Below are positions 17,809-33,244 of a stretch of 64,000 nucleotides of DNA, piece after piece. A program made the translations under genes and the position numbers. Position 1 is the first letter of the stretch, and every line of letters begins with the position of its first letter. The notes under the pieces were generated by a model. The model saw only the letters and a program-made list of their open reading frames with translations, made no database searches and was not told the origin of the DNA. Origin of the DNA: Herbidospora galbida (lineage in GTDB: Bacteria > Actinomycetota > Actinomycetes > Streptosporangiales > Streptosporangiaceae). The stretch covers positions 1 through 64,000 of the forward strand of contig NZ_SZQA01000002.1 of assembly GCF_005233835.1 (NCBI RefSeq), read 5' to 3'.

Positions 17809-18214
17809 TCACCGTATCGTCGCGCCGCCGTTCGCGTAGCGGCGGCGCATGATGGGGCCCGCGGCCGGGCCGGCCGCGAAGACGTGGTCGTCGCCGTCGG
17901 CGCGGGCGCCCGTGGTGGCGTCGACCACGACCGGGTCGGCCTCCAGGCCGGTTCGGCGGTCGAGGAGGATCATCGCGCGGTCGTCGGGGGCGAGCTGGGA
18001 GTTGCGCCAGGCGGCCATTGCGACCAGGACCGGCCGCAGGGAGCGGCCCAGGTCGGTCAGGACGTATTCGTGGCGCACCGGGCGGTCCTGGTAGGGGCGC
18101 CGGGCCAGGATGCCCCGGTCGACCAGGGTCTTCAGGCGGCTGGTCAGCATGCTCGACGACAGGCCGATGTTGGCCTGGAAGTCGTCGAAGCGGGTGTAGC
18201 CGTCGACCGCCGCC
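17809..18214 (-). pseudogene. 5'-truncated HxlR-family regulator
   Basis: This reading frame encodes the C-terminal two-thirds of an HxlR-type winged-helix regulator. It contains GYTRFDDFQANIG, the recognition part SMLTSRLKTLVDRGIL, and RRPYQDRPVRHEYVLTDLGR, all typical of the family. The N-terminal helix with the conserved Cys and the W-T/L-I-L segment is absent. Upstream of the GYTRF motif the frame runs into unrelated sequence with no plausible start codon in position. On the other strand, at the same point, a SnoaL-like gene is also cut at its 5' end. The gene is therefore interpreted as a remnant that has lost its promoter and first 30 or so codons. Confidence 0.72.
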
Positions 18215-18466
18215 TCGATCGCCTTCGCCGCCGGCGCCCACGTGACCGACGACGGGCGCGACCACCACGGCCGGGCGGCGATCAGGGAGTGGCTCGGGCG
18301 GACCTCCGCCGAGTTCGAATACACCTCGACCCCGATCGGCGGCGACGACACCACGGTCACCTGCCGCGTCGAGGGGAACTTCCCGGGGAGCCCGGTCGAC
18401 CTCGACTACCGGTTCGGGCTCGACGAGTCAGGCCGGATCTCCCGGCTGGAGATCGGCGTCCATTAG
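18215..18466 (+). pseudogene. 5'-truncated SnoaL-like/NTF2-fold protein
   Basis: The frame encodes the last ~80 residues of a SnoaL-like polyketide-cyclase/NTF2-family protein (VTDDGRDHHGRAAIREWL, then FEYTSTP, then an FPG and LDYRF strand). Full-length relatives are about 120 residues and begin with two N-terminal helices, missing here. Homology continues a few codons 5' of GTG 18242, then meets an in-frame TAG at 18197-18199. Expression from GTG 18242 is possible but would give an incomplete fold. Divergent HxlR and SnoaL genes are a common actinomycete pair; here both 5' ends were removed by one apparent deletion. Confidence 0.68.
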
Positions 18467-19200
18467 ACCGAGCCCCACACGATGGGGGCGGCCAGCACCT
18501 CGGGGAATTTGCGTTCGGCGTATTTCACGTACTCGTCGATGTGGACGGCCATGGCCTCCGCCGACTTCTCGGGGCAACGGTCGCGGATCGCCTCGTAAAT
18601 CTTCACGTGGGCGCGGTGGACGGCCGAACGGCGCACTTCGGGATAGTCGATTCCGATCGCGGAACCGTCGAGGATTCCCAGTAGCGCGTCGATCAGGTAG
18701 CCGAACATGGTGTTGCCGGAGCCGTGGGCGATGATGTCGTGGAATCGTTTGTTCTCGGCCAGGAACACGCTCTGGTCGGCGAGGCCGGCGCGCATGTCGT
18801 CGACGCTCGACTTCAGCGCGGCGAGTTGTTCGTCGTCCATTCTCTCGGCCGCCAGCCGGGCCATCATCGGCTCCAGCGCCGCGCGGGCCTCGGCGACCGT
18901 GCGGAAGGGCGCGTTCTCGAACTGCAGGAGCAGGGTCAGCGCGGTGACGAGGCCGGTCGCGTCGGGTTGCTGGACGACTGGGCCGCCGCCGGGGCCGGGC
19001 TTGAGCGAAAGGACGCCCTGGAGTTCGAGGAAACGCAGCGATTCGCGGAGGGTGCCGCGGCCGACTTCATAGGTGTCGAGCATGGCGCGTTCGGGCGGCA
19101 GGCGGTCGCCGATGGTGTTGCCCCGGCGGTTGATGTCGGCCACGATGCGCTGGGCTACCAGCATCGCCGTCTTCTGCGGACGCAGTGACACCTGAGCCAT
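18463..19200 (-). CDS. GntR/FadR-family (FCD-domain) transcriptional regulator
   Basis: A 245-residue regulator. The N-terminal winged helix (about 12-80) includes LPPERAMLDTYEVGRGTLRE, and the FCD all-helical ligand domain (about 95-225) carries the Asp/His residues that bind metal or carboxylates (NKRFHDIIAHGSGN, then HRAHVKIYEAI). Its stop shares four bases with the converging SnoaL remnant. Nothing catabolic is adjacent, so its target operon is unclear. Confidence 0.88.
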   Translation of the reverse strand: MAQVSLRPQKTAMLVAQRIVADINRRGNTIGDRLPPERAMLDTYEVGRGTLRESLRFLELQGVLSLKPGPGGGPVVQQPDATGLVTALTLLLQFENAPFRTVAEARAALEPMMARLAAERMDDEQLAALKSSVDDMRAGLADQSVFLAENKRFHDIIAHGSGNTMFGYLIDALLGILDGSAIGIDYPEVRRSAVHRAHVKIYEAIRDRCPEKSAEAMAVHIDEYVKYAERKFPEVLAAPIVWGSV

Positions 19201-19325
19201 TTCTCATGACCTCCGAGAGCGAAACGCGAAGACGCCCTTCGGGCCCCGTTAGTTTCTCACATACGGGATGAGGCGGAGTATCAACGTTTTATCTCGCGCA
19301 TTTGCGAAAGAATCGATGCGCATGA

Positions 19326-20903
19326 TTAGTGGCGGTGCTGCCAGCGCGGAACGGGGCGCAGCCGGGTCAGCACCAGCGCCACGGCCGCGGCCATGACCGG
19401 GACGCACATCGCGGTGAGCCAGCTCGTCATGGCCATGTGCCTGACCGTCTCGACCCGGCCGTGGACGAGCACGACCACGGCGAACTGGGCCAGCGCGGCC
19501 AGCGGCAGGATCGCCGCCAGGCGTCCCATCGTCTTCTCCGACGGGGTCAGGGAGCGGCGGCGTACCACCAGATACCCGGCGCCGGCCGTGGCGATCCAGA
19601 GCACCAGCACCAGCAGCGGGCCCTTGCGGAAGACCTCCCAGATCGTCGAGTAGACGGCGACCCGGTGCTCCTGCTCGCCTTCCGGCTTCCCGGCGCCCTC
19701 CGGGTAGGAGCCCAGGTAGTGGGGGCGGAGCCCGGCGACGCCCTGGAACCCCCATCCGACGGTACGGACGGCGTGCCACGGATGCGTCGCGTAGAACCCG
19801 GCGACCCGGAGGGGGGAGGGGTGGGCGGTGCGGTGGTACCTGTCGGCGAGGGCCGCCCACGTGGGGTGCTCGCGGGGCAGTCCGGCGGCGGGGGCGAGCT
19901 CCGGGTCGAGGCCCAGCGAGGTGAGGTCGGCGGCGGCGGTCGGGTCGTCGTACAGGATGGTCTCGAACACGGCGCCGCGGTCGTCGAACCTGGCCTCGGT
20001 GGCGGTGTGGAAGACGCCGAGCCCGGCGATCCAGGTGGCCACCATCAGCGCCACGACGCGGCGGCCCCGCACCCAGAGCAGCGCGAACCCGATCACGGGC
20101 ACGAACGTCACATACTCCGGCCGCGCCCCGACCAGCAGCAGCGCCGGGACCGCCGTCGCCAGCACCCTCGGCGCCGTCGGCCGCTCCCACAGCAGCAGCA
20201 GCGCCACGACCAGGAACCCGGCCGCCACGAGCGCGGTCGGCTCGGCGTAGGGGGAGACGAGATAGCCGGCGAACCCGGCGTCGGCGTAGAGGAGCCCGAC
20301 CGCCGAGGCGAACCCGGCCCGGAACAGCGGCCGCCCCGGCGTGACCGCCACGAGCAGCCCGCAGACCACGCCGACGAGCAGCGCGAACAGCACCCCGAGC
20401 GCCCGCAGGTCGAGCGCGCCGGGGTAGCCGAGCAGCGGCGTCAGCCACCTCCCGGCGGCCTGCGTGAGCAGGGCGGTCGAGAACTCGGGCGGGCAGGTCT
20501 CACCCGTCCACGCGTGCGAGGTCCAGATCGGCTGTACGTGCTCCCACCCGACCAGCGCGGGGTTCCGGAAGTTGGCCAGCCCGAGCCGGCACGGCAGGTT
20601 CTCCCCGAACCCGGCGAGGCCGACAGGTCCCCCGAGGAACAGCCGGACCTGCATGACGGCCGCCCACACGACCCCGACCACCACCGCCACCAGCGGATGA
20701 CGCCGAATCCCCGCCCGCCGAGCCCGCTTCTCGGCAGGTTCTCCGGCGTGCGTCGTGGCGCCGGAATCGGGCGCGGCCACGGACGCCGGTCGCCGATGAG
20801 ACCTCTCCTTCCACGGCCACCAACGGTGCTTCGTCGAGCCCGGCTCTTCGGGGAACCGGTCGCCCCACGCCATGGGGCCCGGGTCCTTCTGGCCGAGGGT
20901 CAC
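19326..20903 (-). CDS. Polytopic membrane protein, possible GT-C-type glycosyltransferase
   Basis: A 525-residue integral membrane protein starting at GTG 20903, which overlaps the stop of the lipoprotein gene (GTGA). After a basic cytoplasmic N-terminus of about 65 residues there are roughly ten hydrophobic helices. A large loop of about 150 residues lies before the last helices and contains aromatic and Asp/Glu residues. This layout resembles actinobacterial GT-C or mannosyltransferase-like membrane proteins, but no defining catalytic motif is clear. It belongs to the exosortase neighbourhood and may build or export an envelope glycan; this is inference. Confidence 0.7.
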   Translation of the reverse strand: MTLGQKDPGPMAWGDRFPEEPGSTKHRWWPWKERSHRRPASVAAPDSGATTHAGEPAEKRARRAGIRRHPLVAVVVGVVWAAVMQVRLFLGGPVGLAGFGENLPCRLGLANFRNPALVGWEHVQPIWTSHAWTGETCPPEFSTALLTQAAGRWLTPLLGYPGALDLRALGVLFALLVGVVCGLLVAVTPGRPLFRAGFASAVGLLYADAGFAGYLVSPYAEPTALVAAGFLVVALLLLWERPTAPRVLATAVPALLLVGARPEYVTFVPVIGFALLWVRGRRVVALMVATWIAGLGVFHTATEARFDDRGAVFETILYDDPTAAADLTSLGLDPELAPAAGLPREHPTWAALADRYHRTAHPSPLRVAGFYATHPWHAVRTVGWGFQGVAGLRPHYLGSYPEGAGKPEGEQEHRVAVYSTIWEVFRKGPLLVLVLWIATAGAGYLVVRRRSLTPSEKTMGRLAAILPLAALAQFAVVVLVHGRVETVRHMAMTSWLTAMCVPVMAAAVALVLTRLRPVPRWQHRH

Positions 20904-21613
20904 GCCGCCATCCCCTCGCGCAGGGTCCCGACGGTGATGCGGTGGTTCTCCTGGCCCACCCAGCACGACCGGTCGGGGCCGAGCCGGATCCGCAGGCCCC
21001 GCAGCCGCCCGGCGAACATCGCCGCGTTGGCGCGGCAGCGGTTCCTGGTCAGGCCCTGCGGCTCGACCCACTCCCACTCGTGCGGGAGGGCGCACTGGAC
21101 GTCGCGGCCCTCCAGGTTGCAGCGGCGGATGGCCGCCGACTCGGGGCGGTTCATGATGCCGCGCAGCGGGGCCGTCAGGACCGGGCCGCCGTTCGGGTGC
21201 GTCGTCGGGACCAGCAGGTCGCAGCGGAGGGTGCGGTCGCCGGCCGCCCACTCGTCGGGGGTCGGGACCTTGCCCCAGACCGAGACGCCCCACTGGGCGT
21301 CGTGCGGGCCGGCGGCCAGGTAGGGGCGGATCGGACGGTAGTCGCAGCCCGCCGTGACCATCGGGACCAGCAGCTCGTGCGGGGGCCGGATCGGGGTGTC
21401 GGCCATGGGGCCGGTCAGCTGGGTGACCAGGTAGGTCTCCGTCTGGTGGGGCTGGGTGCACGGTACGGGTGGCCGGACGTCGCTCAGGGCGTACAGCTCC
21501 TCCGGCTGGGACATCACGTGACAGCTGCCGACGGGCATGGCCGCGCTCGGGTGCGTGGTCGCCGGGGCGGCGCACGCCGTCGCGAACAGGAGAAGCGCCA
21601 AGGTCTTGCCCAC
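20900..21613 (-). CDS. Septum-formation-domain lipoprotein
   Basis: A 237-residue secreted protein. The hydrophobic N-terminus ends with FATAC, an atypical lipobox (Ala at -3), so lipid attachment at Cys14 is likely but not certain. The mature region resembles the actinobacterial septum-formation (Septum_form) domain: pairs of Cys, a VPCTQPHQTE segment near 51-60, and a second Cys set near 162-170. It is translationally coupled to the membrane protein downstream. The family name is historical and says little about activity. Confidence 0.7.
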   Translation of the reverse strand: MGKTLALLLFATACAAPATTHPSAAMPVGSCHVMSQPEELYALSDVRPPVPCTQPHQTETYLVTQLTGPMADTPIRPPHELLVPMVTAGCDYRPIRPYLAAGPHDAQWGVSVWGKVPTPDEWAAGDRTLRCDLLVPTTHPNGGPVLTAPLRGIMNRPESAAIRRCNLEGRDVQCALPHEWEWVEPQGLTRNRCRANAAMFAGRLRGLRIRLGPDRSCWVGQENHRITVGTLREGMAA

Positions 21614-21782
21614 GGGACCTCCTCGGGGGCGTCAGAGAAAACTCGCGGCACCGTAACAAGCAGACCAGTCCCGGGGCGCGCGGGCGCGCGGTGACTGACC
21701 CTGCCGAGTGAGCCGTCACGCGCGGCGGAGGTGGCCGGACCTGAGCGAGGGCTAGGTTGCAGGTCGTTCAAGAGGGGGGAAC

Positions 21783-22286
21783 ATGGCCGTTCGGGTGGCC
21801 CTTTCGGGGGTGCTGGGGGTGCTGCTCCTGGCGGTGCTGCTGGTCGACGACCGGGTGCGGGGCTGGGAGGCGGTGCTGGCCTCCCACGTGGTCGCGCTGG
21901 TGGCGCGGACCGAGACGGCGGTCAACTCGGTGATGGCGATCCTGTCGTTCAACGAGGAGACCGGTGGCGCGGTCGGGCTGCAGATCTCGCCCGAGTGCAC
22001 GTCCGGGTTCCTGATCGTGCCGCTGCTCGGGGTCACGATCCTGATCCTGTGGCTGTCGCGGCGGGCGGGCGTCTGGCCGCTGGTCGCGCTGGCCGTGGCC
22101 GTGGCGGTGCTGTTCGCGAGCAACCAGGTGCGCATCCTGGCCGTCGTGGTGCTGATCAAGGGGCTGGGCTTCGAGCCCGGTTACTACTGGGGGCACACCA
22201 TGGTCGGCTCGGTGATCAGCGTGTTCGGCATCGGGGCGGCGCTGGTGGCGTACACGCTGCTGACGATGCGGGGGGTGCGGCGCTGA
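21783..22286 (+). CDS. Exosortase/archaeosortase family protein (exosortase P-like)
   Basis: A 167-residue multi-pass membrane transpeptidase-like protein. All three invariant exosortase residues are present: Cys72 in the PECTSGF motif, Arg117 in NQVRIL, and His138 in WGHTMVG. The family cleaves C-terminal sorting signals of exported proteins at the outer face of the membrane and transfers them to an unidentified partner. AGAGGGGGG precedes ATG 21783. Its stop overlaps the ATG of the GT2 gene by one base, so both proteins are made together. The likely substrate is the choice-of-anchor-P protein at 25742. The subtype label P is from memory of this gene association. Confidence 0.9.
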   Translation: MAVRVALSGVLGVLLLAVLLVDDRVRGWEAVLASHVVALVARTETAVNSVMAILSFNEETGGAVGLQISPECTSGFLIVPLLGVTILILWLSRRAGVWPLVALAVAVAVLFASNQVRILAVVVLIKGLGFEPGYYWGHTMVGSVISVFGIGAALVAYTLLTMRGVRR

Positions 22287-23653
22287 TGGGGTATCTGCTC
22301 GGGTTGACCCAGGCGTTCGCGCTGTTCCTCAGCGTCACCTTCCTCACCTACGTCCTGACGATCGTCCGGCCCTATCTGCGGCAGCGGCCCGACCCGGCGG
22401 GGAACCCGGCGGCGTTCGAGTGGCACCTGTTCATCCCGTGCCGCGACGAGGCCGCCGTCATCGGGCCGACGCTGCGCTACCTGCGCGAGCGGTTCTCCCA
22501 CGTCAACGTGTGGGTGGTCGACGACGCCTCCGACGACGACACGGCCCGCATCGTCGAGGGGATCGCGCGCGACGACGCCCGGATCCACCTGGTCACCCGC
22601 GAGCGCCCGGAGGCGCGGACCGGCAAGGGCGACGCCCTCAACGCCGCCTACCGCGCGCTCGACGACTTCCTCCCGCCGGACGCCGACCGGACCCGGCACG
22701 TGGTCTGCGTACTGGACGCCGACGGGCGGCCCGCCCCGAACATGCTGAGCGTGTGCGCCGGCGAGAAGCTGTTCGCCGACCCGGCGATCGGGGCCGTCCA
22801 GATCGACGTGTGGATGATCAACCGCGACGACCGCACCCCGTGCCCGGAGCGCGGCCGGTTCAGGAACGCGTTCGGGCGGCTGCTGGTGCGGATGCAGGAC
22901 CTGGAGTTCCGCGGCCCGATCTCGGCGATCCAGCTCGGCCGGCGGCGCAGCGGCACGGTCGCGATGGGCGGCAACGGCCAGTTCACCCGGCTGAGCGCGC
23001 TCGACAAGGTCGCGAGCGGCGGGGAGGGGCCCTGGGGCGGCTCGCTGCTGGAGGACTTCGAGCTCGGCGTGCGGCTGCTGCTGGCGGGGGAGCGCAACGA
23101 GTACACCCCCGACACGTGGGTCGAGCAGGAGGGCCTCTGGTCGTTCCGGCGGCTCCTCACCCAGCGCACCCGCTGGGGTCAGGGCACCATGCAGTGCGCC
23201 AAGTACCTGCCGGAGATCTGGCGTTCGGCCCGGTTCAGCAGCCTCGGCGCGCTCGAAGTGCTCTACTACCTGTCGCAGCCGTGGATGCAGCTCCTCGGGA
23301 CGCTCGTCTACCCGATCCCGATGATCTATCTGGCCGGACGGCTGATCGCCGACCCGGCCGGGATGAGCTGGTGGCTGGTCGAGGGCGGCTGGATCCTGTT
23401 CGCCGTCTACGGCACCTTCGGCATTCTGCCGTTCCTCATCTGGGGGCCGCTTTACTGGTGGCGCTGCGAACCCCGGGTCGGACTCGGCAGAAGCCTGCTC
23501 TACGGGGTCGTGTACGCCTTCTACATTTACAATTTCTATCTCACGTCATGGCGGGCCTTCTGGCGGATCATTCGCGGCCGGAGCGGCTGGGCGAAAACCC
23601 GGAGAAACGCCGAGACCCATGTCGCGGGCGCGCCCGTGGCCCGGGAGAGGTGA
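22286..23653 (+). CDS. Processive family 2 glycosyltransferase, membrane-bound
   Basis: A 455-residue enzyme with an N-terminal membrane helix, a cytoplasmic GT2 domain and three to four C-terminal helices. This is the topology of cellulose/hyaluronan-synthase-like polymerases. Catalytic motifs are Asp79-Asp80 (VVDDASDD), Asp144-Ala-Asp146, the base pair Glu256-Asp257 in LLEDFELG, and QRTRW at 293-297 for acceptor and product binding. It would polymerise or transfer a UDP-sugar through the membrane. Coupling to the exosortase suggests that the glycan is the partner to which sorted proteins are joined; the UDP-GlcNAc epimerase nearby may supply the donor sugar. That link is inference. Confidence 0.88.
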   Translation: MGYLLGLTQAFALFLSVTFLTYVLTIVRPYLRQRPDPAGNPAAFEWHLFIPCRDEAAVIGPTLRYLRERFSHVNVWVVDDASDDDTARIVEGIARDDARIHLVTRERPEARTGKGDALNAAYRALDDFLPPDADRTRHVVCVLDADGRPAPNMLSVCAGEKLFADPAIGAVQIDVWMINRDDRTPCPERGRFRNAFGRLLVRMQDLEFRGPISAIQLGRRRSGTVAMGGNGQFTRLSALDKVASGGEGPWGGSLLEDFELGVRLLLAGERNEYTPDTWVEQEGLWSFRRLLTQRTRWGQGTMQCAKYLPEIWRSARFSSLGALEVLYYLSQPWMQLLGTLVYPIPMIYLAGRLIADPAGMSWWLVEGGWILFAVYGTFGILPFLIWGPLYWWRCEPRVGLGRSLLYGVVYAFYIYNFYLTSWRAFWRIIRGRSGWAKTRRNAETHVAGAPVARER

Positions 23654-23664
23654 ATTCCCGGGCC
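23638..23664. terminator. Hairpin between converging GT2 and LPFTG genes
   Basis: Perfect 8-base inverted repeat GGCCCGGG (23638-23645) and CCCGGGCC (23657-23664) enclosing the GT2 stop codon and followed by ATTTC. It sits between two converging genes and probably terminates transcription; the poor T-run lowers certainty. Confidence 0.55.
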
Positions 23665-23674
23665 ATTTCGGCGG

Positions 23675-23830
23675 CTATCGCACCTTATGCATTCTGAACA
23701 GCAGCGCGCCGCCCACGATGAGCACGGCCGCCAGCGCGATGATCACCGCCAGGTGAATTCCGGTGAACGGCAGAACGGTCAACGGGACACCGGTCTGCCA
23801 GCGGGGACCGTGCCCCCAGGATCCGTACAC
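23675..23830 (-). CDS. 51-residue LPFTG sorting-signal micro-protein
   Basis: This short gene lies between the GT2 and the epimerase genes. GTG 23830 is preceded by GAGG at a 7-base distance, overlapping the epimerase stop. The protein is a 20-residue polar head rich in Gly, Trp and His (SWGHGPRWQTG), the pentapeptide LPFTG at residues 20-24, a 21-residue hydrophobic helix, and a basic tail (FRMHKVR). This is exactly the three-part architecture of a C-terminal cell-wall sorting signal, but with almost no protein in front of it and no separate signal peptide. It is in the same frame as the epimerase, three codons after its TGA. No sortase gene is in the window; the exosortase next door is a candidate processing enzyme. 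Function unknown. Confidence 0.72.
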   Translation of the reverse strand: MYGSWGHGPRWQTGVPLTVLPFTGIHLAVIIALAAVLIVGGALLFRMHKVR

Positions 23831-23839
23831 AATGACACC

Positions 23840-24916
23840 TCAGTTCTCGGAATGGATGAGTTCGGCGCACGCCCTCGCCACGCGGGCGGCGGCGTGGCCG
23901 TCGCCGTAGTGGCAGGGGGCGACGTGCCTGACCCGGCCGGCCACGGCCGACTGGAGGAACAGACCGGCGGTCTTGACGACCAGGTCCTCGTCGGTGCCCA
24001 CCAGGTGGGCCCGGCCGTCGTCGAGGGCCTCGACCCGTTCGGTCGCGTCGCGCATGACCAGCACCGGCAGGCCGAGCGCGGCGGCCTCCTCCTGGACGCC
24101 GCCCGAGTCGGTGATCGCCAGCGCGCTGACGGCCAGCAGCCGGGCGAACTCCCGGTAGGGCAGCGGTGGCACGCACCGGATGTTGGCCCGGGGCCGCACC
24201 ACCTGGTCGAACACCTGGCGTACCGCCGGGTTGAGATGGGTGGCGACGACGAAGTCGACGCCGGGATGACCGGCGGCGAGCCGGTCGGCGACGCGGGCGA
24301 CGCGCCGCATGGGCTCGCCCCACGACTCGCGCCGGTGCGCGGTGAGCACCACCAGCGGCCGGTCCCGGGGCGCGGGCCGGTCGGCCAGTACGGCGGCCAG
24401 CGCGTCTATCACCGTGTTCCCGGTGACCAGCACCCGGTCGGCCGGGATCCGCTCGGCGAGCAGGTTCGCGCGGGCCGAGGCGGTCGGCGCGAGGTGCAGG
24501 TCGGCCAGCGGCGCGATCAGCCGCCGGTTCACCTCCTCGGGGAACGGGGTGGCCCGGTGGCTGCGCAGCCCGGCCTCGACGTGCGCGACCGGAACCCGCC
24601 GCAGGTACGCCGCCAGCGCCCCGCCGAACGCCGACGTCGTATCCCCCTGGACGACGACGAGATCGGGCCTGAGCTGCTCGAACACCGCGTCGAGCCCGAG
24701 CACGACCTCGGCGGTCAGCACGGGCAGGGTGGCCGCCTCGCGGCGGAGCCCCCGGGAGACCTCGGCCCCGAACAGCGCGAGCACCTCGCCCACCACCGCG
24801 CCGTGCTGTCCGGTGTGGACCACGTCGACCTCGGCGAAGGCCCGCAGCGCCGGGACGACCGGCCCGAGCTTGATCGCCTCGGGCCGGGTGCCCACGACCA
24901 CGCAGACCCGCTTCAC
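23840..24916 (-). CDS. wecB: UDP-N-acetylglucosamine 2-epimerase (non-hydrolysing, WecB type)
   Basis: A 358-residue cytoplasmic enzyme interconverting UDP-GlcNAc and UDP-ManNAc. Family hallmarks are the N-terminal VVVGTRPEAIKL, HTGQHG, a VQGDTTSAF segment, HVEAGLRSH, and the C-terminal TDSGGVQEEAAALG that binds the sugar nucleotide. Start is GTG 24916, overlapping the stop of the response-regulator gene by four bases (GTGA). It probably supplies an activated amino sugar for the envelope glycan of this locus. Length and motifs are normal. Confidence 0.93.
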   Translation of the reverse strand: MKRVCVVVGTRPEAIKLGPVVPALRAFAEVDVVHTGQHGAVVGEVLALFGAEVSRGLRREAATLPVLTAEVVLGLDAVFEQLRPDLVVVQGDTTSAFGGALAAYLRRVPVAHVEAGLRSHRATPFPEEVNRRLIAPLADLHLAPTASARANLLAERIPADRVLVTGNTVIDALAAVLADRPAPRDRPLVVLTAHRRESWGEPMRRVARVADRLAAGHPGVDFVVATHLNPAVRQVFDQVVRPRANIRCVPPLPYREFARLLAVSALAITDSGGVQEEAAALGLPVLVMRDATERVEALDDGRAHLVGTDEDLVVKTAGLFLQSAVAGRVRHVAPCHYGDGHAAARVARACAELIHSEN

Positions 24917-25572
24917 CAGCCGCTCCCGGTCCGCGCGTCGCCGAGCACGACCGCGATGGCATGGGCCCGATCACGCGCGCCGATCTTGCGCAGGATCGAC
25001 TTGACGTGGGTCTTCACGGTCTCGTGGGCGATGCAGAGCCGCCCGGCGATGGCCCGGTTGTCGAGGCCCAGGATGATCTCCTCCAGCACCTCGTGCTCGC
25101 GCGGGCTGAGGTCGAACCGGGTGCGCCGGCCCCCGCGCCCGGCGGGCGACCGGCCGAGCCGGTCGTCGACGATGACCTGGCCCTCGGCCACCCGCTCCAG
25201 GTGGAACAGCAGGTCCTCCAGCGGCGAGGACTTCAGCAGGTACGCGTGCGCGCCCGCGTCGAGCGCCGCGGACGCCAGGTTGACGTCGTCGACCGAGGTG
25301 AGCACCACCGGCATCACGCCGGGATGCTCCAGGCCGATCCAGCGGCACAGTTCCAGGCCGCAGTCGTCGCCGATCCGCGTTTCGCAGATCACGATTTCCG
25401 GTATAAGCCGAGAAATCATCCGGCGGCCTTCCGCGCCGGTCGTGGCGGAGGCGGCGACCGTGAATGCGGGGGCCTGCCGGAGAAATGCGCGCAATGCGAG
25501 ATGTGCGAGCGGCCCTTCGTCGACGACGACGATTTGGCACGTTTCCCGGCGGACGGATCCGCGTGTCACCAT
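24913..25572 (-). CDS. LuxR-type response regulator with pseudo-receiver domain
   Basis: A 219-residue regulator with an N-terminal receiver domain (about 12-130) and a C-terminal LuxR/GerE helix-turn-helix (about 152-210, LSPREHEVLEEIILGLDNRAIAGRL then HETVKTHV). The acidic pair Asp18-Glu19 and the conserved Lys in LLKSS are kept. The phosphoacceptor Asp is replaced by Glu64 (IVICETRIGDD), so ordinary phosphorylation is impossible and the domain may be locked in an active-like state. AGGAG lies five bases before ATG 25572. It heads an operon with wecB and the LPFTG gene and is divergent from the anchor-P gene, which it may regulate. Confidence 0.88.
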   Translation of the reverse strand: MVTRGSVRRETCQIVVVDEGPLAHLALRAFLRQAPAFTVAASATTGAEGRRMISRLIPEIVICETRIGDDCGLELCRWIGLEHPGVMPVVLTSVDDVNLASAALDAGAHAYLLKSSPLEDLLFHLERVAEGQVIVDDRLGRSPAGRGGRRTRFDLSPREHEVLEEIILGLDNRAIAGRLCIAHETVKTHVKSILRKIGARDRAHAIAVVLGDARTGSGW

Positions 25573-25636
25573 TTCGGCTCCTGTTCTTCGACGCTCAATG
25601 TAACGAGCGAATCGAGGCGTTTAGGGGCCGCAACAC

Positions 25637-25652
25637 TCACTCTCTGGAGTGA
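25637..25652. promoter_or_regulatory. Palindrome upstream of the anchor-P gene and LuxR operon
   Basis: Perfect inverted repeat TCACTC-tctg-GAGTGA in the 169-base divergent intergenic region. Size and symmetry suit a LuxR/GerE-type dimer site for the adjacent regulator. Binding is inferred from position only. Confidence 0.5.
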
Positions 25653-25741
25653 ACTGACAGGTACCTTACTGTTTCCCGCTGGGCGCACGCATAACTTGGA
25701 GCATCATCGACTTATACGGGAAGCCCGCGGAGGGCCTGCAC

Positions 25742-26458
25742 ATGTTTCTCGGACGTACTTTCGCCATTTCCGTCGCGGCGGTGACGACGCTGCTCACGGG
25801 AATGACGAGCACGGTCCACGCGCGCAGCGACACGGTCAACGCCTACGGCGCGTCGATCAGCCTGCCGCTGGGCCTCGACTTCGGCCCCGCGCCGGAGGCC
25901 GACCTCGGCAACCAGAGCGCGTCGGTGGCGTCGATCGGCGTCGGGACCGTGTCGACCGGTGTCGTCGCGGTGGAGGTGGAGCAGAACACCACGGTCGGGA
26001 CCGAGGCGGCGCGGGCGTCGGTCGACGGCCTGAGCGCGACCCTGCTCGGCATCGGCGTCAGCGCGGGTTCCGTCCGGGCGGAGTGCACCGCGACCGCCGG
26101 CCTGCCGACGACGGGCTCGACGACGCTGGCCGACGCGCAGGTCCTCGGCGCCACCCTGGCCGGCAACCCGGCGGCGAACACCTTGATCCGGTTCCCGCCC
26201 GCGCTGCCGCTCATCGAGGTCCGCCTCAACGAGCAGATCACCAACGACGACGGCGGCCTGACCGTCCACGGCATGCGCATCCTGGCGCTGTCGGGCGTCG
26301 GCGACATCATCCTGAGCTCGGCGACCTGCGGCCCGGCCACTCTGGACCCGCCGAACCCGGTGCCGCTCGCCTCGGGCGCCGGCCTCTACCTGGCCCTCGG
26401 CCTCACCGCCGCCGCCGGCGGCACGCTGCTGCTGCGCCGCCGCCGTCAGCTGGTCTGA
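25742..26458 (+). CDS. Choice-of-anchor-P family exported protein, likely exosortase substrate
   Basis: A 238-residue secreted protein. The signal peptide covers about 1-28. The body is small-residue-rich and beta-type, with paired Cys (AECTATA and SATCGP) and the conserved segment VRLNEQ-x-TNDDGGLTVHGMRI, which I recognise from the choice-of-anchor-P family. The C-terminus is a sorting signal: a short NPVPLASG motif, a hydrophobic helix, then RRRRQLV. GGAGGG precedes the ATG. It is the best candidate substrate for the exosortase at 21783. A different motif (LPFTG) is used by the micro-protein of the same locus. Confidence 0.85.
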   Translation: MFLGRTFAISVAAVTTLLTGMTSTVHARSDTVNAYGASISLPLGLDFGPAPEADLGNQSASVASIGVGTVSTGVVAVEVEQNTTVGTEAARASVDGLSATLLGIGVSAGSVRAECTATAGLPTTGSTTLADAQVLGATLAGNPAANTLIRFPPALPLIEVRLNEQITNDDGGLTVHGMRILALSGVGDIILSSATCGPATLDPPNPVPLASGAGLYLALGLTAAAGGTLLLRRRRQLV

Positions 26459-26470
26459 CGCGTCGGGGTC

Positions 26471-26498
26471 CGCCCTCTATCGCCTCTGGTAGAGGGCG
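26471..26498. terminator. Bidirectional hairpin between anchor-P and GT-C genes
   Basis: A 9-base perfect inverted repeat, CGCCCTCTA (26471-26479) and TAGAGGGCG (26490-26498), just after the anchor-P stop. The minus-strand stop codon lies within the hairpin. No T-run follows, as is common in actinomycetes. Confidence 0.6.
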
Positions 26499-27799
26499 AA
26501 CCAGGAGTAGCCGAAGTCCTTGAAGTAGCGGGCCTTGTACTTCTTCTGCAGGTCGAGATAGCTCTGGTCGGTCTCGACGAAGGCGCTGTTCTGGTGCTTC
26601 CGCCCGCCGGACACCACCCAGACCCGCTCATACTCTCCGATGTCGCGGGGCCGGAGTTCGATCAGTTTCCGGTACGGCTCCGCGTACACTCCGGCGAACC
26701 ACGTGTAGTACTCGTCGACGTACAGAACCGCGTCGCCCGGTCGCTGCCGTTCGGACAGCGCGGCCGCCATCGACCGCAGGTCGTCGGGGCGATGGTCGGG
26801 CGCCCGCAGCCACAGGTGCTTGGGCACGGTCAGCGCCGTGAGCAGCGCCAGCCCCGCCCACGCGAGCGGCTTCGGCCGCAGCCGGTCGAGCCCCGCCCCG
26901 GCCAGCAGCGCCAGCGCCGGGAGCGCGAACAGCACGTAACGCGGGCTGTAGATCGGGTAGACCAGCGAGATCAGCATCGACAGCGGGATCATCAGCGCCC
27001 ACGGCACGGCCACCCGCCCCAGCGCGCCCCGCGCCCCGAAGACCGCCAGCGCGAGCAGCGGGACCATGCCCCATCTGCTGCCCATGACCTCCTGGGCGAA
27101 CGCCGGCAGCGCCTCCCACGTGGGTGAACGCAACCATCCGAGCTGGGTGTCCCGCTGGAAGGCCGCCGTGACGGCATACCCGGAGAGCCCCAGGCCCACG
27201 AGCAGCATGCCCTGGAGGAACCGTTTGCGGTCGGGCGCGATGAACGCGTGCGCCACCACGAGCAGCAGCCCGTACACGTGGAAGAGGCCCAGCACGAGGA
27301 TCGTGAGGCGGTAGGGATACTGCTTCTCCCGAGGGGTCACCAGCAACCAGGTCGCCAGCACCGCCAGCGCGGTCACGATCGCGTATGACCTGACCTCCTG
27401 CGCGTACCGGGTGACCATCGGCAGGACCGCGAACACCAGCCCGGCCAGCAGCCCGGCCCGCGTCGAGGCCAGCTGGCGTCCCAGCGCGACGATCCCGTAG
27501 GCCGCCCCCGCCATGGCCAGGACCGAGGGCAGGCGCAGGGCGAACTCCGACGTGGAGATCCACGCCACCGGCCGCAGCAGGTAGTAGTAGAACTGGTGCA
27601 CCCGGTCCATGTGGCCGAGCAGGTCCCACAGTTCGCCGATCGGCCGCGAGGCGGCCAGCGCGGAGACCGACTCGTCGCGCCAGAACGACGGCACCCAGAC
27701 GTTCCACAGCCCGACGAGGAGGGCGACGACGGCGGCTGTCGCCTCGGCGCGCCGCCTGGTCAGCGGCGAGGCCGGCGCTTCGGTCAGGGCCATCGTCAT
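26477..27799 (-). CDS. GT39/ArnT-like polyprenyl-phosphate-sugar glycosyltransferase
   Basis: A 440-residue polytopic membrane protein of GT-C fold. The first periplasmic loop contains the family's acidic motif after an aromatic stretch (FWRDESVSALAA, Asp/Glu near residue 42-43), and about ten helices follow. A soluble C-terminal domain has several Tyr/Trp residues. Enzymes of this type move a sugar from a polyprenyl-phosphate carrier onto a protein or lipid outside the membrane. Its place beside the anchor-P protein and exosortase suggests glycosylation of the sorted protein or of its partner. Start is ATG 27799 or 27793. Confidence 0.82.
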   Translation of the reverse strand: MTMALTEAPASPLTRRRAEATAAVVALLVGLWNVWVPSFWRDESVSALAASRPIGELWDLLGHMDRVHQFYYYLLRPVAWISTSEFALRLPSVLAMAGAAYGIVALGRQLASTRAGLLAGLVFAVLPMVTRYAQEVRSYAIVTALAVLATWLLVTPREKQYPYRLTILVLGLFHVYGLLLVVAHAFIAPDRKRFLQGMLLVGLGLSGYAVTAAFQRDTQLGWLRSPTWEALPAFAQEVMGSRWGMVPLLALAVFGARGALGRVAVPWALMIPLSMLISLVYPIYSPRYVLFALPALALLAGAGLDRLRPKPLAWAGLALLTALTVPKHLWLRAPDHRPDDLRSMAAALSERQRPGDAVLYVDEYYTWFAGVYAEPYRKLIELRPRDIGEYERVWVVSGGRKHQNSAFVETDQSYLDLQKKYKARYFKDFGYSWFALYQRR

Positions 27800-27834
27800 G
27801 GCGCTAATTCATACCACTTGACCATTCGGATGCT

Positions 27835-27864
27835 ATGAACGTACGTTCATGAACATGCGTTCAT
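27835..27864. promoter_or_regulatory. Tandem TetR-type operators before the methyltransferase operon
   Basis: Two abutting copies of ATGAAC-N4-GTTCAT: 27835-27850 (fully palindromic, ATGAACGTACGTTCAT) and 27849-27864. They cover the start region of the methyltransferase. The TetR protein encoded by the second gene of that operon is the obvious candidate ligand, giving autoregulation. Confidence 0.72.
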
Positions 27865-28634
27865 ATGTGGTGAACACCCACCAGGCCGAGGCCTGGAACG
27901 GCTATGAGGGCGCCCACTGGGCCGCCCACCCCGACCGCTACAACGCCGTCAACGACGCCTTCAACCCCTACCTCCTCGACGCCGTCAGGCCCGGCGACCG
28001 CGTCCTCGACATCGGGTGCGGCACCGGGCGGACCACCCGGCTGGCCGCGCGCACGGCGGCCTCCGCCACCGGGATCGACCTGTCGGGCCCGATGCTCGCC
28101 ACCGCCCGCGAGCTCGCGGGCGAGGGAGAGATCGCGTTCGTCCAGGGCGACGCCCAGGTCCACCCGTTCCCCGATTCGTCGTTCGACCTGGCTCTCAGTA
28201 GATTCGGGATCATGTTCTTCGGCGATCCCGCCGCCGCCTTCGCCAACATCGGCCGGGCCCTCGCGCCGGGCGGGCGGCTCGCGTTCCTGTCGATGCGCGG
28301 CTACGGCGACCTGGCCTCGGTCGTCTCGGCCCTCGGCCTGCCCGCCCCAGAACCGGGCGCCGGCCCCCTCGCCCTGGGCGACCCCGAGACGGTCGGCCGC
28401 GTGCTCACCGAGGCCGGCTTCGCCGACGTCACCGCCCGCCCGGTCGACGCGCCGCAGAACTGGGGCGCCGACGCCGCCGACGCGGCGGCGTTCCTGGGGG
28501 CGTGGGGGCCGATCAGGCACCAGGCCGGAGACGGCGCCGCCGAGAGGCTGCTCCCGGCGCTGCGCGCCTTCGAGACCCCCGGCGGCGTGCTGCTCAAGGG
28601 CGAGGCGCTGCTGGTCGGGGCGGTGCGGCCGTGA
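27849..28634 (+). CDS. Class I SAM-dependent methyltransferase
   Basis: A methyltransferase of the UbiE/Methyltransf_11 type, about 255-261 residues. The SAM-binding motif LDIGCGTGRTT is near residue 53-63, the acidic GIDLSG near 75-80, and the post-II motif FDLALSRFGIMFF near 113-125. No ribosome-binding site is visible; ATG 27849 lies inside the operator, and GTG 27867 or 27870, just after it, are realistic alternatives for a leaderless message. Its stop overlaps the start of the TetR gene by one base. Substrate unknown. Confidence 0.85.
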   Translation: MNMRSYVVNTHQAEAWNGYEGAHWAAHPDRYNAVNDAFNPYLLDAVRPGDRVLDIGCGTGRTTRLAARTAASATGIDLSGPMLATARELAGEGEIAFVQGDAQVHPFPDSSFDLALSRFGIMFFGDPAAAFANIGRALAPGGRLAFLSMRGYGDLASVVSALGLPAPEPGAGPLALGDPETVGRVLTEAGFADVTARPVDAPQNWGADAADAAAFLGAWGPIRHQAGDGAAERLLPALRAFETPGGVLLKGEALLVGAVRP

Positions 28635-29227
28635 TGGCGCCGCGCCGGGCACGGGCCGTCGACGCCGGGGTGGACCTGCGCGACCACCTCATCGGCGCCG
28701 CCGCACGGCTCATCGCCCGGCGCGGCGCCGCCGGGCTGACCGTGCGCGAGATCGCCCGGGAGGCCGAGGTGGCCACCGGGGTGCTCTACAACCACTTCGC
28801 CGACAAGGAGGAACTGCTCGCCCTCGGTCTGCACGGCCATGTGCGGGCCGCCGAACGCGACCTGCCGCCGTTGCCCGCCGACGGCGAAGAGGTGGGGCGG
28901 GCGCTGCTTGCGTACACCAAAAGGGCTCTTGACCTGCACCTGGTCATCGTTCCCGCGTTCGCGAACCTGGCGCCGGAGGTGCTCGAACGCTTCACCGCGC
29001 TCGGCAACCCCGCCGCCGGCGGGCAAGGGCTGCGCGACCAGCTCGCCGCGTATCTGCGGCGGCGGCGGGACGCGGGGGACATCGCCCCCGGCGCGCCGGT
29101 CGACGCCGCCGCAACGATGATCATCGGAGCCTGTCACGAGGTCACCCTGCGCGTTCCGGCGGCCGTGCCCGAGGGGTTCGCCGAGGACCTGGTCACCATC
29201 GTCCTCGACGGGATCCGGGTGCGGTAA
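28634..29227 (+). CDS. TetR-family regulator
   Basis: A 197-residue regulator with the helix-turn-helix at about 20-65 (GLTVREIAREAEVATGVLYNHF) and a helical ligand domain. It is translationally coupled to the methyltransferase gene (TGATG). The tandem ATGAAC-N4-GTTCAT operators in front of the operon fit its binding-site size, so a simple autorepressed detoxification or modification operon is inferred. Confidence 0.9.
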   Translation: MAPRRARAVDAGVDLRDHLIGAAARLIARRGAAGLTVREIAREAEVATGVLYNHFADKEELLALGLHGHVRAAERDLPPLPADGEEVGRALLAYTKRALDLHLVIVPAFANLAPEVLERFTALGNPAAGGQGLRDQLAAYLRRRRDAGDIAPGAPVDAAATMIIGACHEVTLRVPAAVPEGFAEDLVTIVLDGIRVR

Positions 29228-29277
29228 CGAAGCCCGCGATACAGTCGTGTAATGGTGCGAAGCTCGTTGAGGTGCCC

Positions 29278-30048
29278 GTGAACCTGTCCGGGGCCTGGCC
29301 GATCACCGAAGACGTCGGGTCGATGCGTGACCGCATCGACGCGTTCGCCTCGGGTGCCGGGCTCGCCGGGGCCCGTCTCCATGATCTGGTGTTCGCCGCC
29401 AACGAGGCGGTCGTCAACGTGCTGGAGCACGGCGACGGGCACGGCACCGTGCGGATCTGGCTGGACGACGGCCAGGTCGTCGTGGAGGTGACCGATCTGG
29501 CCGGCCGGCTCACCCCCGCCCATCTCAGCCCTGCCCGGCCCTCGCTCGACGGCCGCCGCGGCTTCGGCCTGTGGCTCATGAGCGAGGTCTGCGACCAGCT
29601 GACGATCGAGCAGGGTGACGGCGGCTCCCGCGTGGAGATGCGCATGACCGTCGACGACGACTCGATCAAGCCCCGGGGCGGCGCGCAGCAGCGCCTCGGC
29701 GTGGCCGTGACCCATCGACCGGCCGGTCCGCTCGTGACCGTCTCCGGCGACCTCGACGCGACCACCTCGCCGCAGTTGCACGCGGTGGTCAACGACCTGC
29801 TCACCTCCGGCCGCACCTACATCGCGGCCGACCTGTCCGGGGTCGGGTTCTGCGACTCCAGCGGGCTGCGGGTGCTCCTCGTCTCCACGGTCGCGGCCCG
29901 GGAACTGGGCGGGCTGATGGTGCTGGCCGGGGTGACCGGCCCGCTCGACCGGCTGCTCAGGCTGACCGGAAGCCTCACCGTGCTGGCCGTCCGCGACAAC
30001 GCTGAGGAGGCGTTGAACCTCCTCTCCGAGCACCGGGCCGGCTCATGA
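29278..30048 (+). CDS. RsbW-like anti-sigma kinase fused to RsbV-like STAS domain
   Basis: A 256-residue fusion. Residues about 10-125 form an HATPase_c_2 serine-kinase domain with the N-box [12 protein letters not shown] and a G-box in RRGFGLWLM. Residues about 145-250 form a STAS domain with the switch loop [11 protein letters not shown], including the phosphorylatable Ser. Normally RsbW (anti-sigma) and RsbV (antagonist) are separate proteins. GTG 29278 has GAGG five bases upstream; GTG 29272 is the alternative. The next gene overlaps by four bases and encodes the matching phosphatase. No sigma factor gene is adjacent. Confidence 0.88.
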
Positions 30049-31310
30049 CCCACGAACTCGACGACCTGATCGGGCGGCTGCAGGAGGAGACCCGGCTCGT
30101 CGAGACGCTCCACGAGGTGGGCCGCGCGCTGGCCGCCGACCTCGACCTCCCCCGGATCGTGCGCACGGCCTGCGACGCCGCGACCTCGCTGACCGGTGCG
30201 GCCTTCGGCTCGTTCTTCTACAACGTCTACGACATGAACGGCGAGAGCTACTTCCTGTACGTGCTCTCCGGCGTCCCCCGAAGCGCCTTCGAGGGCTTCC
30301 CGATGCCGCGCAACACCAAGGTGTTCGACCCCACGTTCCAGGGCGAGGGCGTCATCCGCATGGACGACGTGCGCGCCGACCCCCGCTACGGCCACAATCC
30401 GCCCTACAACGGCATGCCCCAGGGCCACCTCGACGTGCGCAGCTACCTCGCGGTGCCGGTGATCTCACCGTCGGGTGAGGTGCTCGGCGGGTTCTTCTTC
30501 GGCCACCCCGAGCCGGGCATGTTCACCGCCCGCCACGAGCAGCTCGCCTCCGGCGTGGCCGCCCAGGCCGCCGTCGCCATGGACAACGCCCGCCTCTACC
30601 AGCGCCACCGCGACGCCGCCGTGGAGCTCCAGCGCAGCCTGCTGTCCCCGCTGCCGCACGTCCACGGCCTACGGCACGCCTGGCGCTACTACCCGGCGCG
30701 CGGCATCGACGTCGGCGGCGACTGGGTCGACCTGATCCCGATCGACGAGGGCCGGGTCGCGCTCGTGGTCGGCGACGTCATGGGCAAGGGCATCCAGGCC
30801 GCCGCCCTGATGGGGCAGATGCGCACGGCCGTACGCGCCCTGGCGGTCAGCCACATGTCGCCGGGCGAGATCCTGCGCCAGTCGGCCGTGGTGCTGCGGG
30901 CCGCCGACCGGGCCCGCCTGGTGACCTGCTGCCTGGCCGTCTACGACGCTCAGGCCGAGACCCTGACCTGGGCCAACGCCGGTCAGCTGCCGATGCTGCT
31001 CGACGTGCCCGGCAACCCCTGCCGGTTCCTCGACGACGGCGCAGGGCCGCCGCTGGGCGTGGTCGACTACAACTACGTCGAGCACAAGGTGCACTTCCCG
31101 CCCGGCACCCGGCTGCTCCTCTACACCGACGGCCTGATCGAGCGGCGCGACCGGGCGATCGACGCCGGGATGGGCGTGCTGAAGTCGCTCTGGCAGGGCA
31201 CCCGCGGCCTCGCCGACCTCGACGCGGTCGCCGACCGGCTCGTCGAGGAGCTGGTCGACGTCCGCGCCCACGAAGACGACATCGCCCTGCTGGTCGTCAC
31301 GACCAGTTGA
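30045..31310 (+). CDS. GAF-domain PP2C/SpoIIE-type serine phosphatase
   Basis: A 421-residue signalling phosphatase. A GAF domain at about 25-180 senses an unknown signal, and a SpoIIE/RsbU PP2C domain at about 200-420 has the metal-binding Asp residues in [21 protein letters not shown] and HEDDIALLV. It would dephosphorylate the STAS half of the upstream fusion and so free a sigma factor. The start ATG overlaps the stop of the fusion gene (ATGA), and its end overlaps the converging dehydrogenase gene by 14 bases. Confidence 0.92.
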
Positions 31311-32412
31311 AGGTGGTCGTGAGCTCCAGGGCCTGACCGGTCCGGGCCGACTCGTGCGCCTTCAGCATGATCTCCAGCGCGTGGCGGGCGACGTCGCCGC
31401 CCATGACCTCCTCGGCCGCGCCGTTCACCACGTCGGCGAGGTGGTCGACCAGCAGCGCCCGGCGCAGCTTGTCGACGCGCTGCTGGGCCAGCTCCAGGTG
31501 GGCGAGGTCGAGGTCGACCCAGCCGCTCAGCCCGGCGGCGGCCTCCAGCAGGAACAGGTCGATGCCCCGGCCGCCGTTCACCGGCAGGTTGTTCGGCAGG
31601 TTCAGGGTGCCCTTGCGGCCGAAGACCTCCAGGCGGGGGCCCTTGGCGGCGTTCACGTTGAAGGTGCCGTCGACCACGGCGAACGTGCCGCCGCCGAAGT
31701 CGAGCATGATCAGGGTGTTGTCGTCGGTGGTGACGGTGATCTCCTTGCCGGCGTACGGGCCGGAGCGCACCACCCGGGTCGGCTCGGTGATGCCCGAGAA
31801 CGCCGACACCCGCTTGGCCGGGCCGAGCAGGCCGAGCATCTCGTGGATGCCGTAGACGCCGACGTCGAACAGGGGGCCGGAACCCTCCTGGTAGAACCAG
31901 GTCGGGTCGGTCGGCCAGTTCATCATCGAGGCGGGGCCGCCGTGGCTGGCCCTGACCTTGGCGAACGCGACCTTGCCGATGATCCCCTCGCGGATCAGCC
32001 GGGCCGCCTCGATGCGGCTCGGGTAGAGCATGTTGGGCGGCGAGCAGACGATCTTGAGGCCGCTCGCGGCGGCCAGGTCGATGAGCGCGTCGGCCTCCTC
32101 CATCGTGGTGGCCAGCGGCTTCTCGGTCGCCAGGTGCCGGCCCGCCTCCAGGATCTTCAGCGAGGTCGCGCCGTGCGCCGGGATGGGGGTCAGGTTGAGC
32201 ACCAGGTCGAGGTCGGACTCGTCGAGCATCTCGTCGAGCGTGGCGTAGGTCTCCCGCGCGCCGAACCTCTTCGCGGCGGCGGCGGTGCGCTCCTCCACCG
32301 GGTCGCACAGTGCGACCAGTTCCACCTTGTCGGCGATGTGGTGCAGGTTGGGCAGCACCCCGTAGTCGACCGTGGCGATCGCCCCGACCCCGAGGACCCC
32401 GAGCTTCAACAT
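31297..32412 (-). CDS. Gfo/Idh/MocA-family oxidoreductase
   Basis: A 371-residue NAD(P)-dependent sugar or inositol-type dehydrogenase. The N-terminal Rossmann fold starts [15 protein letters not shown]. The family EKP segment (ATEKPLA, near residue 95-101) holds the catalytic Lys region, and the C-terminal dimerisation domain follows. It is the last gene of the sugar-transport operon, 16 bases after a permease gene. It probably oxidises the imported sugar or a derivative; substrate unknown. Confidence 0.9.
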
Positions 32413-32428
32413 CAGACTGAACCCTTTC

Positions 32429-33244
32429 TCAACCCTTGACCGCGCCCGCGACCATGCCCTGCATGAGGCGCTTCTGGACCAGCAGGAAGAACACGACGAC
32501 CGGGATCGTGAAGATCACGCTGGCCGCCATGACGCCGCCCCAGTCGGAGTAGTAGCTGGAGAAGAACTGCTGCAGCGCGACCGGGAGCGTCTCCCTGGAC
32601 GACTGCTGCATGTACGTCGCCGAGAACATCAGCTCGTTCCACGACGTGATGAACCCGTAGATCGAACTGGCCGCCAGCCCCGGCCAGACCAGCGGGAACA
32701 CGACCAGGCGCACGGCCTTCATCCGCGAGGCGCCGTCGACCATCGCCGACTCCTCAAGTGAGACCGGGATGTCCATGAAGAAACTCCGCAGCATGTACGT
32801 CGCCAGCCCCACCGTCAGCGCGAGGTGCGACAGCACGAGCCCCTGGTAGGTGCCGAGCAGATCGGTGTTGCGCAGCACCACGAACAGCGGGATGACCAGC
32901 ACCGTCTGCGGCAGCATCTGGATCGACAGGATCACGATCAGCAGGTAGCGCTTCATGGGGATGTCGAACCGCGCCAGCGCGTACCCCGCCAGCAGCGCGA
33001 TCAGCCCGGTGATGACCGTGGTGGCCCCGGCGACCAGCAGCGAGTTGAGGAACTGGCGCGGGATCGCCCCGGAGAACAGCTCGGTGTAGCGCGACAGGAT
33101 CGGCTCGTGCGGGATGAACTGCGGGCTCACCGTGAAGATCTCGGTGTCCGGCTTGAGCGAGGTGACGATCATCCAGAAGAACGGGAACAGGCTCGCCAGG
33201 CAGATGAGAGCCATCGCCGGATAGACGATCAGCCTCCGGGTCAT
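32429..33244 (-). CDS. Carbohydrate ABC transporter permease (MalG-like)
   Basis: A 271-residue inner-membrane permease with six helices. The cytoplasmic EAA loop lies at about residue 165-185 (MVDGASRMKAVRLVVFPLVWPG), typical of CUT1 sugar importers. It forms a heterodimer with the product of the upstream gene, with which it overlaps by four bases. No ABC ATPase gene is present in the operon, so a shared MsmK/MalK-type ATPase encoded elsewhere must energise it. Confidence 0.94.
   Translation of the reverse strand: MTRRLIVYPAMALICLASLFPFFWMIVTSLKPDTEIFTVSPQFIPHEPILSRYTELFSGAIPRQFLNSLLVAGATTVITGLIALLAGYALARFDIPMKRYLLIVILSIQMLPQTVLVIPLFVVLRNTDLLGTYQGLVLSHLALTVGLATYMLRSFFMDIPVSLEESAMVDGASRMKAVRLVVFPLVWPGLAASSIYGFITSWNELMFSATYMQQSSRETLPVALQQFFSSYYSDWGGVMAASVIFTIPVVVFFLLVQKRLMQGMVAGAVKG

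Follow-up and report, generated by a model that had tools for sequence, protein, structure and literature searches.

Exosortases have been tied to exopolysaccharide from the start. In the PEP-CTERM/EpsH system (PMC1569441), an exosortase is likewise linked to glycan production, but the system was reported in outer-membrane bacteria and its sorting signal is of the PEP and not of the LPxTG kind. The chaplins ChpA-C of Streptomyces (LAxTG, class E sortase; PMC5148588) have the same sorting-signal build as the micro-protein described here, and the genome studied also has a class E sortase; by comparison with these chaplins, the micro-protein lacks a signal peptide, has a head of about 19 residues in a total of 51 aa, and is encoded by a gene tied to a glycosyltransferase. 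In Actinomyces oris, a sortase-anchored glycoprotein is made by glycopolymer transfer (GspA/LcpA; PMC6381275). This wall-anchored, glycopolymer-carrying protein works like the model proposed below, except that transfer of the polymer to the surface protein is the work of an LCP enzyme there, whereas the partner here is a QxxRW-type GT2 synthase.

The window, that is the whole stretch of 64,000 nucleotides analysed, contains a locus of the exosortase P kind, a system described in NCBIfam by four models (NF012139 for the exosortase, NF053846 for the glycosyltransferase, NF040603 and NF053845 for the surface protein CoaP) that do not describe the micro-protein. The glycosyltransferase and CoaP of the window pass the curated cut-offs, whereas the exosortase reaches 112.5 bits against the XrtP cut-off of 200 (NF012139), this being its best score among the XrtP, XrtR and XrtS models. 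Closest to the micro-protein itself is the family NF058583 (LAXTG_small_WW, “LAXTG motif-containing small protein”), formed by Pseudonocardiaceae-type relatives and named without a role, which resembles it in size, in its Met-Tyr head and in its sorting signal, and likewise belongs to XrtP-type loci. Of 52 micro-protein family members scanned, 44 match this model at E<=0.01; in comparison, the window protein, which has LPFTG instead of LAxTG and no Trp-Trp after the motif, does not match at E<=0.01 and is not listed at E<=1 (cut-off 65 bits). The LAxTG kind is thus already catalogued in NCBIfam, and the LPFTG form of the window lies outside that model. An earlier note on this DNA, made from its letters, knew of no described system; this holds in part, since the catalogue of families has models for relatives of the micro-protein, for XrtP, for its glycosyltransferase and for CoaP, and term searches of the open-access literature returned neither a role for the micro-protein nor its link to exosortase-free GT2 synthases and neighbouring sortases. 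Judged from sequence, the reading preferred here, with slightly less than an even chance of being right, is that the micro-protein is a sortase-anchored protein serving a GT2 glycan synthase, its tail being cut by sortase and its head fixed to peptidoglycan.

The micro-protein gene and its neighbours

The features of the locus are as follows.

21783 to 22286, plus strand: exosortase of XrtP type (Cys72, Arg117, His138); TIGR04178, 30.4 bits, cut-off 23
22286 to 23653, plus strand: XrtP-associated GT2 glycosyltransferase, convergent with the micro-protein gene; NF053846, 693.7 bits, cut-off 520
23675 to 23830, minus strand: micro-protein gene, 51 aa, with Met-Tyr head, LPFTG, one membrane helix and basic tail
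23757 to 23771, minus strand: LPFTG sortase-type motif, residues 20-24 of the micro-protein
23840 to 24916, minus strand: wecB, non-hydrolysing UDP-GlcNAc 2-epimerase; TIGR00236, 320.8 bits, cut-off 210.15
24913 to 25572, minus strand: LuxR-type response regulator, overlapping the wecB start by 4 nt
25742 to 26458, plus strand: CoaP, choice-of-anchor P surface protein with a CoaP_CTERM tail; NF040603, 73.1 bits, cut-off 27; NF053845, 41.7 bits, cut-off 35

The exosortase, above the TIGR04178 cut-off, has the conserved Cys, Arg and His, which we take to be its catalytic residues; they are found in 79, 79 and 80 of 80 relatives, respectively. The glycosyltransferase carries the QxxRW motif, read QRTRW, which marks processivity in GT2 synthases. 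CoaP is the predicted exosortase substrate of the locus; its tail is of the P[LI]ASG type, unlike the sortase-type L[PA]xTG of the micro-protein encoded beside it. Its AlphaFold model is beta-rich (mean pLDDT 78.9), but none of 1353 matches in a PDB search with this model reaches E<=0.001, so no function follows and CoaP was rejected as a guide to function. Two further genes at the edges of this group are kept in Herbidospora: one for a mannosyltransferase-like membrane protein (PF13231; 26477-27799), adjoining CoaP, and one for a Septum_form protein (PF13845; 20900-21613), upstream of the exosortase.

The earlier note had reported 51 codons with a ribosome-binding site at 23675-23830 and gave no strand. 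The reading frame is confirmed, and the gene lies on the minus strand, with a GTG start at 23830 and its stop at 23675; the plus-strand reading is not the gene. The start lies 9 nt from the last base of the upstream, co-directional wecB, whose stop codon is overlapped by the GAGG-type ribosome-binding site of the micro-protein gene, and the gene takes up 156 of the 186 bases that separate wecB from the convergent glycosyltransferase, which ends at 23653. The product, MYGSWGHGPRWQTGVPLTVLPFTGIHLAVIIALAAVLIVGGALLFRMHKVR, consists of a 19-residue head followed by LPFTG, a hydrophobic helix and a basic tail, and so combines the LPxTG-like motif, helix and basic C-terminus that characterise sortase substrates, although none of the curated LPXTG models scores it above its cut-off. 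An N-terminal signal peptide is absent, as judged by reading, the head being too short and not hydrophobic. The sequence thus bears out the description of a C-terminal sorting signal that is complete but has hardly any protein in front of it and no signal peptide.

The gene product is present in all seven genomes of the genus Herbidospora, the six others at 84-94% identity; outside the genus, the single further match among 60 genomes is weak and falls inside a 329-aa frame (genome G053). Over the seven Herbidospora copies (21 pairs), pooled pS is 0.333 and pN 0.052, giving a pN/pS of 0.156 that indicates purifying selection; single pairs range from 0.05 to 0.56. Variable sites are distributed 16/5/26 over the three codon positions, third positions changing most. 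The micro-protein gene is a real, conserved coding gene, and the absence of conservation or of coding constraint, by which the earlier note would have judged its proposal wrong, is not what was found. The idea that the frame is what decay has left of a longer surface protein, its C-terminus, was rejected because the gene is conserved and under constraint; an RNA element in place of a gene was likewise rejected, no Rfam match being found in 18000-33000. Between the convergent glycosyltransferase and micro-protein genes lies a perfect 10-base inverted repeat at 23637-23665 (TGGCCCGGGA / TCCCGGGCCA, 9-base loop), which may be a shared terminator of both.

The family in exosortase loci

Within the order, a glycosyltransferase above the NF053846 cut-off is present in 13 of 345 genomes and 12 of these, in six genera counting that of the window, have the micro-protein gene in the same place; the exception, G170, has the glycosyltransferase and wecB and neither exosortase nor micro-protein gene. 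Scanning named genomes by glycosyltransferase alignment gave 112 confirmed relatives, of which the best 80 by glycosyltransferase similarity were kept; the genera named in their titles are Herbidospora, Sinosporangium, Acrocarpospora, Rhizohabitans, Lentzea, Amycolatopsis, Actinokineospora, Saccharothrix, Kutzneria, Frankia, Kitasatospora and others. All 80 loci have an exosortase and a wecB relative, and 76 a CoaP relative within the stretch examined. Each of the 80 also has a short frame, no more than 1.8 kb from the glycosyltransferase, that encodes L[PA]xTG (required by the scan), a helix and a basic tail, and no second such frame with a start codon was found in the 80 stretches, one incomplete frame lying at the edge of L111. 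The placement of the gene in an exosortase locus with glycosyltransferase and epimerase neighbours, as first described for the window, is therefore a conserved one. Among the genes mapped, the micro-protein gene adjoins wecB in all 80 loci; it lies between CoaP and wecB in 65 of them and after wecB in Herbidospora and its kin. In Sinosporangium album (L061 / L046), the wecB match is limited to residues 320-357, while exosortase, glycosyltransferase, micro-protein gene and regulator remain.

Five further, more divergent exosortase loci from a sample of the taxonomic class (G379, G513, G521, G400, G589) also carry the gene beside the exosortase or glycosyltransferase, so that with the 80 named loci and the window it is present in 86 of 86. 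With a short model and 150 candidates scored per genome, CoaP_CTERM was found in 11 of 23 genomes and, on the same terms, was not found in the exosortase-bearing genomes G010, G379, G513, G521, G400, G589 and G630; the last of these, a Frankia, has a CoaP relative by tblastn despite this miss, and no conclusion is based on the tally.

Tyr directly follows the start codon in 79 of 80 micro-proteins, the exception beginning Arg-Ile-Tyr (L061). Because start codons were picked with a preference for those followed by Tyr, background and ribosome-binding sites were used as controls: Tyr follows 521 of 47257 start-like codons in these loci (1.1%), and a ribosome-binding site of at least 4 bases precedes 74 of 79 Met-Tyr starts, compared with 68 of the 158 remaining in-frame starts and 1198 of 4000 random ones. 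The motif is LAxTG in 68 loci and LPxTG in 12 (LAATG 37, LAVTG 19, LPFTG 11, LAMTG 7, LALTG 3, and LPGTG, LAYTG and LASTG 1 each; L065 has two candidate registers), so that within a scan requiring L[PA]xTG the middle residue varies around a constant frame. Heads are mostly 15-20 residues long, with 77 of 80 at 20 or fewer, and Gly makes up 36% of all head residues. The Frankia micro-protein (L079 / L201) has a Gly-rich head of 74 residues in a total of 112 aa.

This glycine content, together with the long Frankia head, is what a structural surface peptide in its own right would have, a hydrophobic or Gly-rich coat linked to the synthase through nothing more than a shared surface layer; such a role is improbable, as most heads are too short for most structural functions and hold Tyr at one fixed place.

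The constancy of the locus raises the question as to whether the exosortase is the partner of the micro-protein. In a two-enzyme relay, XrtP would link CoaP to the micro-protein at the latter's exposed N-terminus, after which sortase would anchor the pair to the wall; the presence of the gene in every one of the 86 exosortase loci, the Met-Tyr end as the most constant part of the head, and the separate, different tail of CoaP are all consistent with such an acceptor, but the same head recurs in 13 genomes without an exosortase match, which leaves the relay with little probability. Minimal length and genetic linkage to the exosortase could also suggest a competitive regulator, a decoy sorting signal for exosortase or sortase. 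Of the readings considered this is very improbable, as the motif is of the sortase and not of the CoaP type, L[PA]xTG micro-protein genes occur without exosortase, and a decoy for general sortases would not need one gene beside each synthase.

Micro-proteins beside other GT2 synthases

A family profile (A5), made from the window protein and 51 of 76 distinct micro-proteins, was searched against 394 genomes with 15 candidates scored in each; matches were listed for 168 genomes, most of them being the usual sorting signals of longer frames. Besides exosortase loci, 18 places with short frames were picked by eye among the matches listed, seven of them beginning Met-Tyr, three Met-Pro-Tyr and eight with neither, two of these eight being at contig edges. 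The seven Met-Tyr L[PA]xTG genes come from five genera and from genomes without a TIGR04178 match, and each follows a GT2 glycosyltransferase gene of a different, second type, starting 2-28 nt past its stop codon; this second type is related to poly-GlcNAc synthase models at scores far below their cut-offs. The two micro-protein families align over their length, from Met-Tyr to tail (96.6% probability, E 5.4e-10).

A survey of 296 genomes for this second type gave matches at 39 places in 35 genomes. Of 30 such loci, 14 have a Met-Tyr L[PA]xTG micro-protein gene; in 3 the small protein starts with Met-Tyr but lacks the motif, 12 have another small single-helix protein, and one is masked; 13 of the 14 genomes in the first group have no TIGR04178 match, and the fourteenth, G513, has an exosortase. 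Micro-protein genes beside GT2 genes without exosortase make the glycan synthase the constant partner. The exosortase with CoaP thus looks like an add-on, present in some loci only, and an exosortase-centred reading was rejected as the main one. A view of the exosortase as key partner or as target of regulation, the latter one of the options in the earlier note, is not supported, given same-design micro-proteins beside exosortase-free GT2 genes and a motif, L[PA]xTG, that belongs to sortases.

GT2 enzymes can also be coupled to small single-helix partners that lack L[PA]xTG. Upstream of 17 exosortase-free relatives of the window's glycosyltransferase type (L022-L038), the small single-helix protein has, by eye, no L[PA]xTG before its last helix, so that within this glycosyltransferase clade the sortase motif goes with the exosortase. 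Most of these proteins do have LxxTG-like letters before the last helix, and the XrtP micro-protein family aligns weakly with one such motif-free group over the LxxTG-helix part (81.6%, E 1.1e-5). Beside the second GT2 type, the downstream small single-helix protein of L242 and L244-L254, about 60-75 aa or longer with a “...NT.YV.LA.AK.LP” pattern, has neither Met-Tyr nor a sortase motif.

Such motif-free partners suggest that the ancestral role was possibly that of a synthase subunit. The micro-protein could accordingly be a small membrane subunit that stabilises or activates the GT2 synthase or its export channel, carries no covalent glycan, and bears a motif whose sole effect is to shorten its life or to tether the site of the synthase to the wall. 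A plain subunit role of this kind, to which sortase anchoring would have been added later or locally, is rather unlikely and is nonetheless a serious rival; it leaves unexplained why the 80 named loci and 14 exosortase-free or mixed ones preserve L[PA]xTG while its middle residue is free to vary, and a mere subunit would not need sortase genes clustered with the synthase.

Sortase genes and a possible wall anchor

Actinomycetes generally have sortases, so it says little that every genome in two tested sets (13 of 13 and 27 of 27) has sortase genes, and their position says more. Of the 39 places with the second GT2 type, 20 entered a proximity count, and 5 of these 20 have a sortase gene no farther than 1 kb from the GT2 gene, where uniform placement would give 0.034; the five pairs come from three lineages, one genus giving three. 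At five further places of the other small-protein type (G387, G538, G444, G471, G443), no sortase was near on reading the gene lists, and no sortase gene adjoins those XrtP-type loci for which sortases were mapped. The gene order GT2, micro-protein, sortase (L260 and L261) is found in G404, where the sortase start overlaps the micro-protein stop, and in G439, where the motif reads LPITG and the sortase is of class E. In G105, G107 and G113, the Met-Tyr small protein has no motif, yet a sortase lies next door, of class F where typed (G105). The window genome has seven PF04203 (sortase) matches, and two of its sortases were typed, one as class E (227.4 bits, cut-off 160) and one as class F. SrtE1 of S. 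coelicolor cuts peptides of the LA- as well as the LP-type, favouring Ala two-fold (PMC5148588), which fits the exchange of LAxTG and LPxTG within the micro-protein family.

A sortase is therefore the likely processing enzyme of the micro-protein. In the sortase-anchored reading preferred here, the basic tail would keep the C-terminus in the cytoplasm, so that the head of about 20 residues would be flipped out without a signal peptide (N-out/C-in); a sortase of class E type would cut between Thr and Gly and join the head to a peptidoglycan precursor; and the Tyr-containing head would receive the polymer of the synthase or contact the synthase, fixing polymer or export site to the wall. In the window locus, exosortase and CoaP would bring a protein partner into that same layer of the surface. 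The micro-protein may thus be a peg that holds sugar chains, or the synthase making them, at the bacterial wall, and we take it as an adaptor between glycan synthase and wall that would most likely receive the polymer on, or hold it by, its Tyr/Gly head. Two proposals of the earlier note, a peptide anchor or acceptor and a small surface peptide linked to the glycan, remain the best readings.

To our knowledge, it is poorly understood what keeps polymers on the Gram-positive surface once synthase-type GT2 enzymes have extruded them. A wider proposal is that the micro-protein belongs to a previously unrecognised module fixing synthase-made polysaccharide to the Gram-positive wall, in which the N-terminal Tyr/Gly head accepts or primes the polymer and the LPxTG/LAxTG tail allows sortase to weld the micro-protein to peptidoglycan; the module would serve at least two GT2 types, sometimes have its own sortase, and be coupled to exosortase-sorted proteins in XrtP-type loci. 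In this full form the proposal is unlikely. If true, it would make the micro-protein, kept beside such synthases throughout Actinomycetes, a directly testable answer to the retention of synthase-extruded polymers and would explain a sortase-type signal inside actinomycete exosortase loci. Genes for little more than a sortase signal, which annotation easily misses, can be constant parts of a system.

Other short frames depart from the Met-Tyr design. L208 has a short LPFTG frame without Met-Tyr (3572-3778) beside genes reading like nucleotide-sugar enzymes, and Tyr is residue 4 of the micro-protein of L261. In the third set, which begins Met-Pro-Tyr and so has Tyr as residue 3 (L207, L209, L211), the micro-protein gene overlaps the start of yet another GT2 gene in the one case tested, L207.
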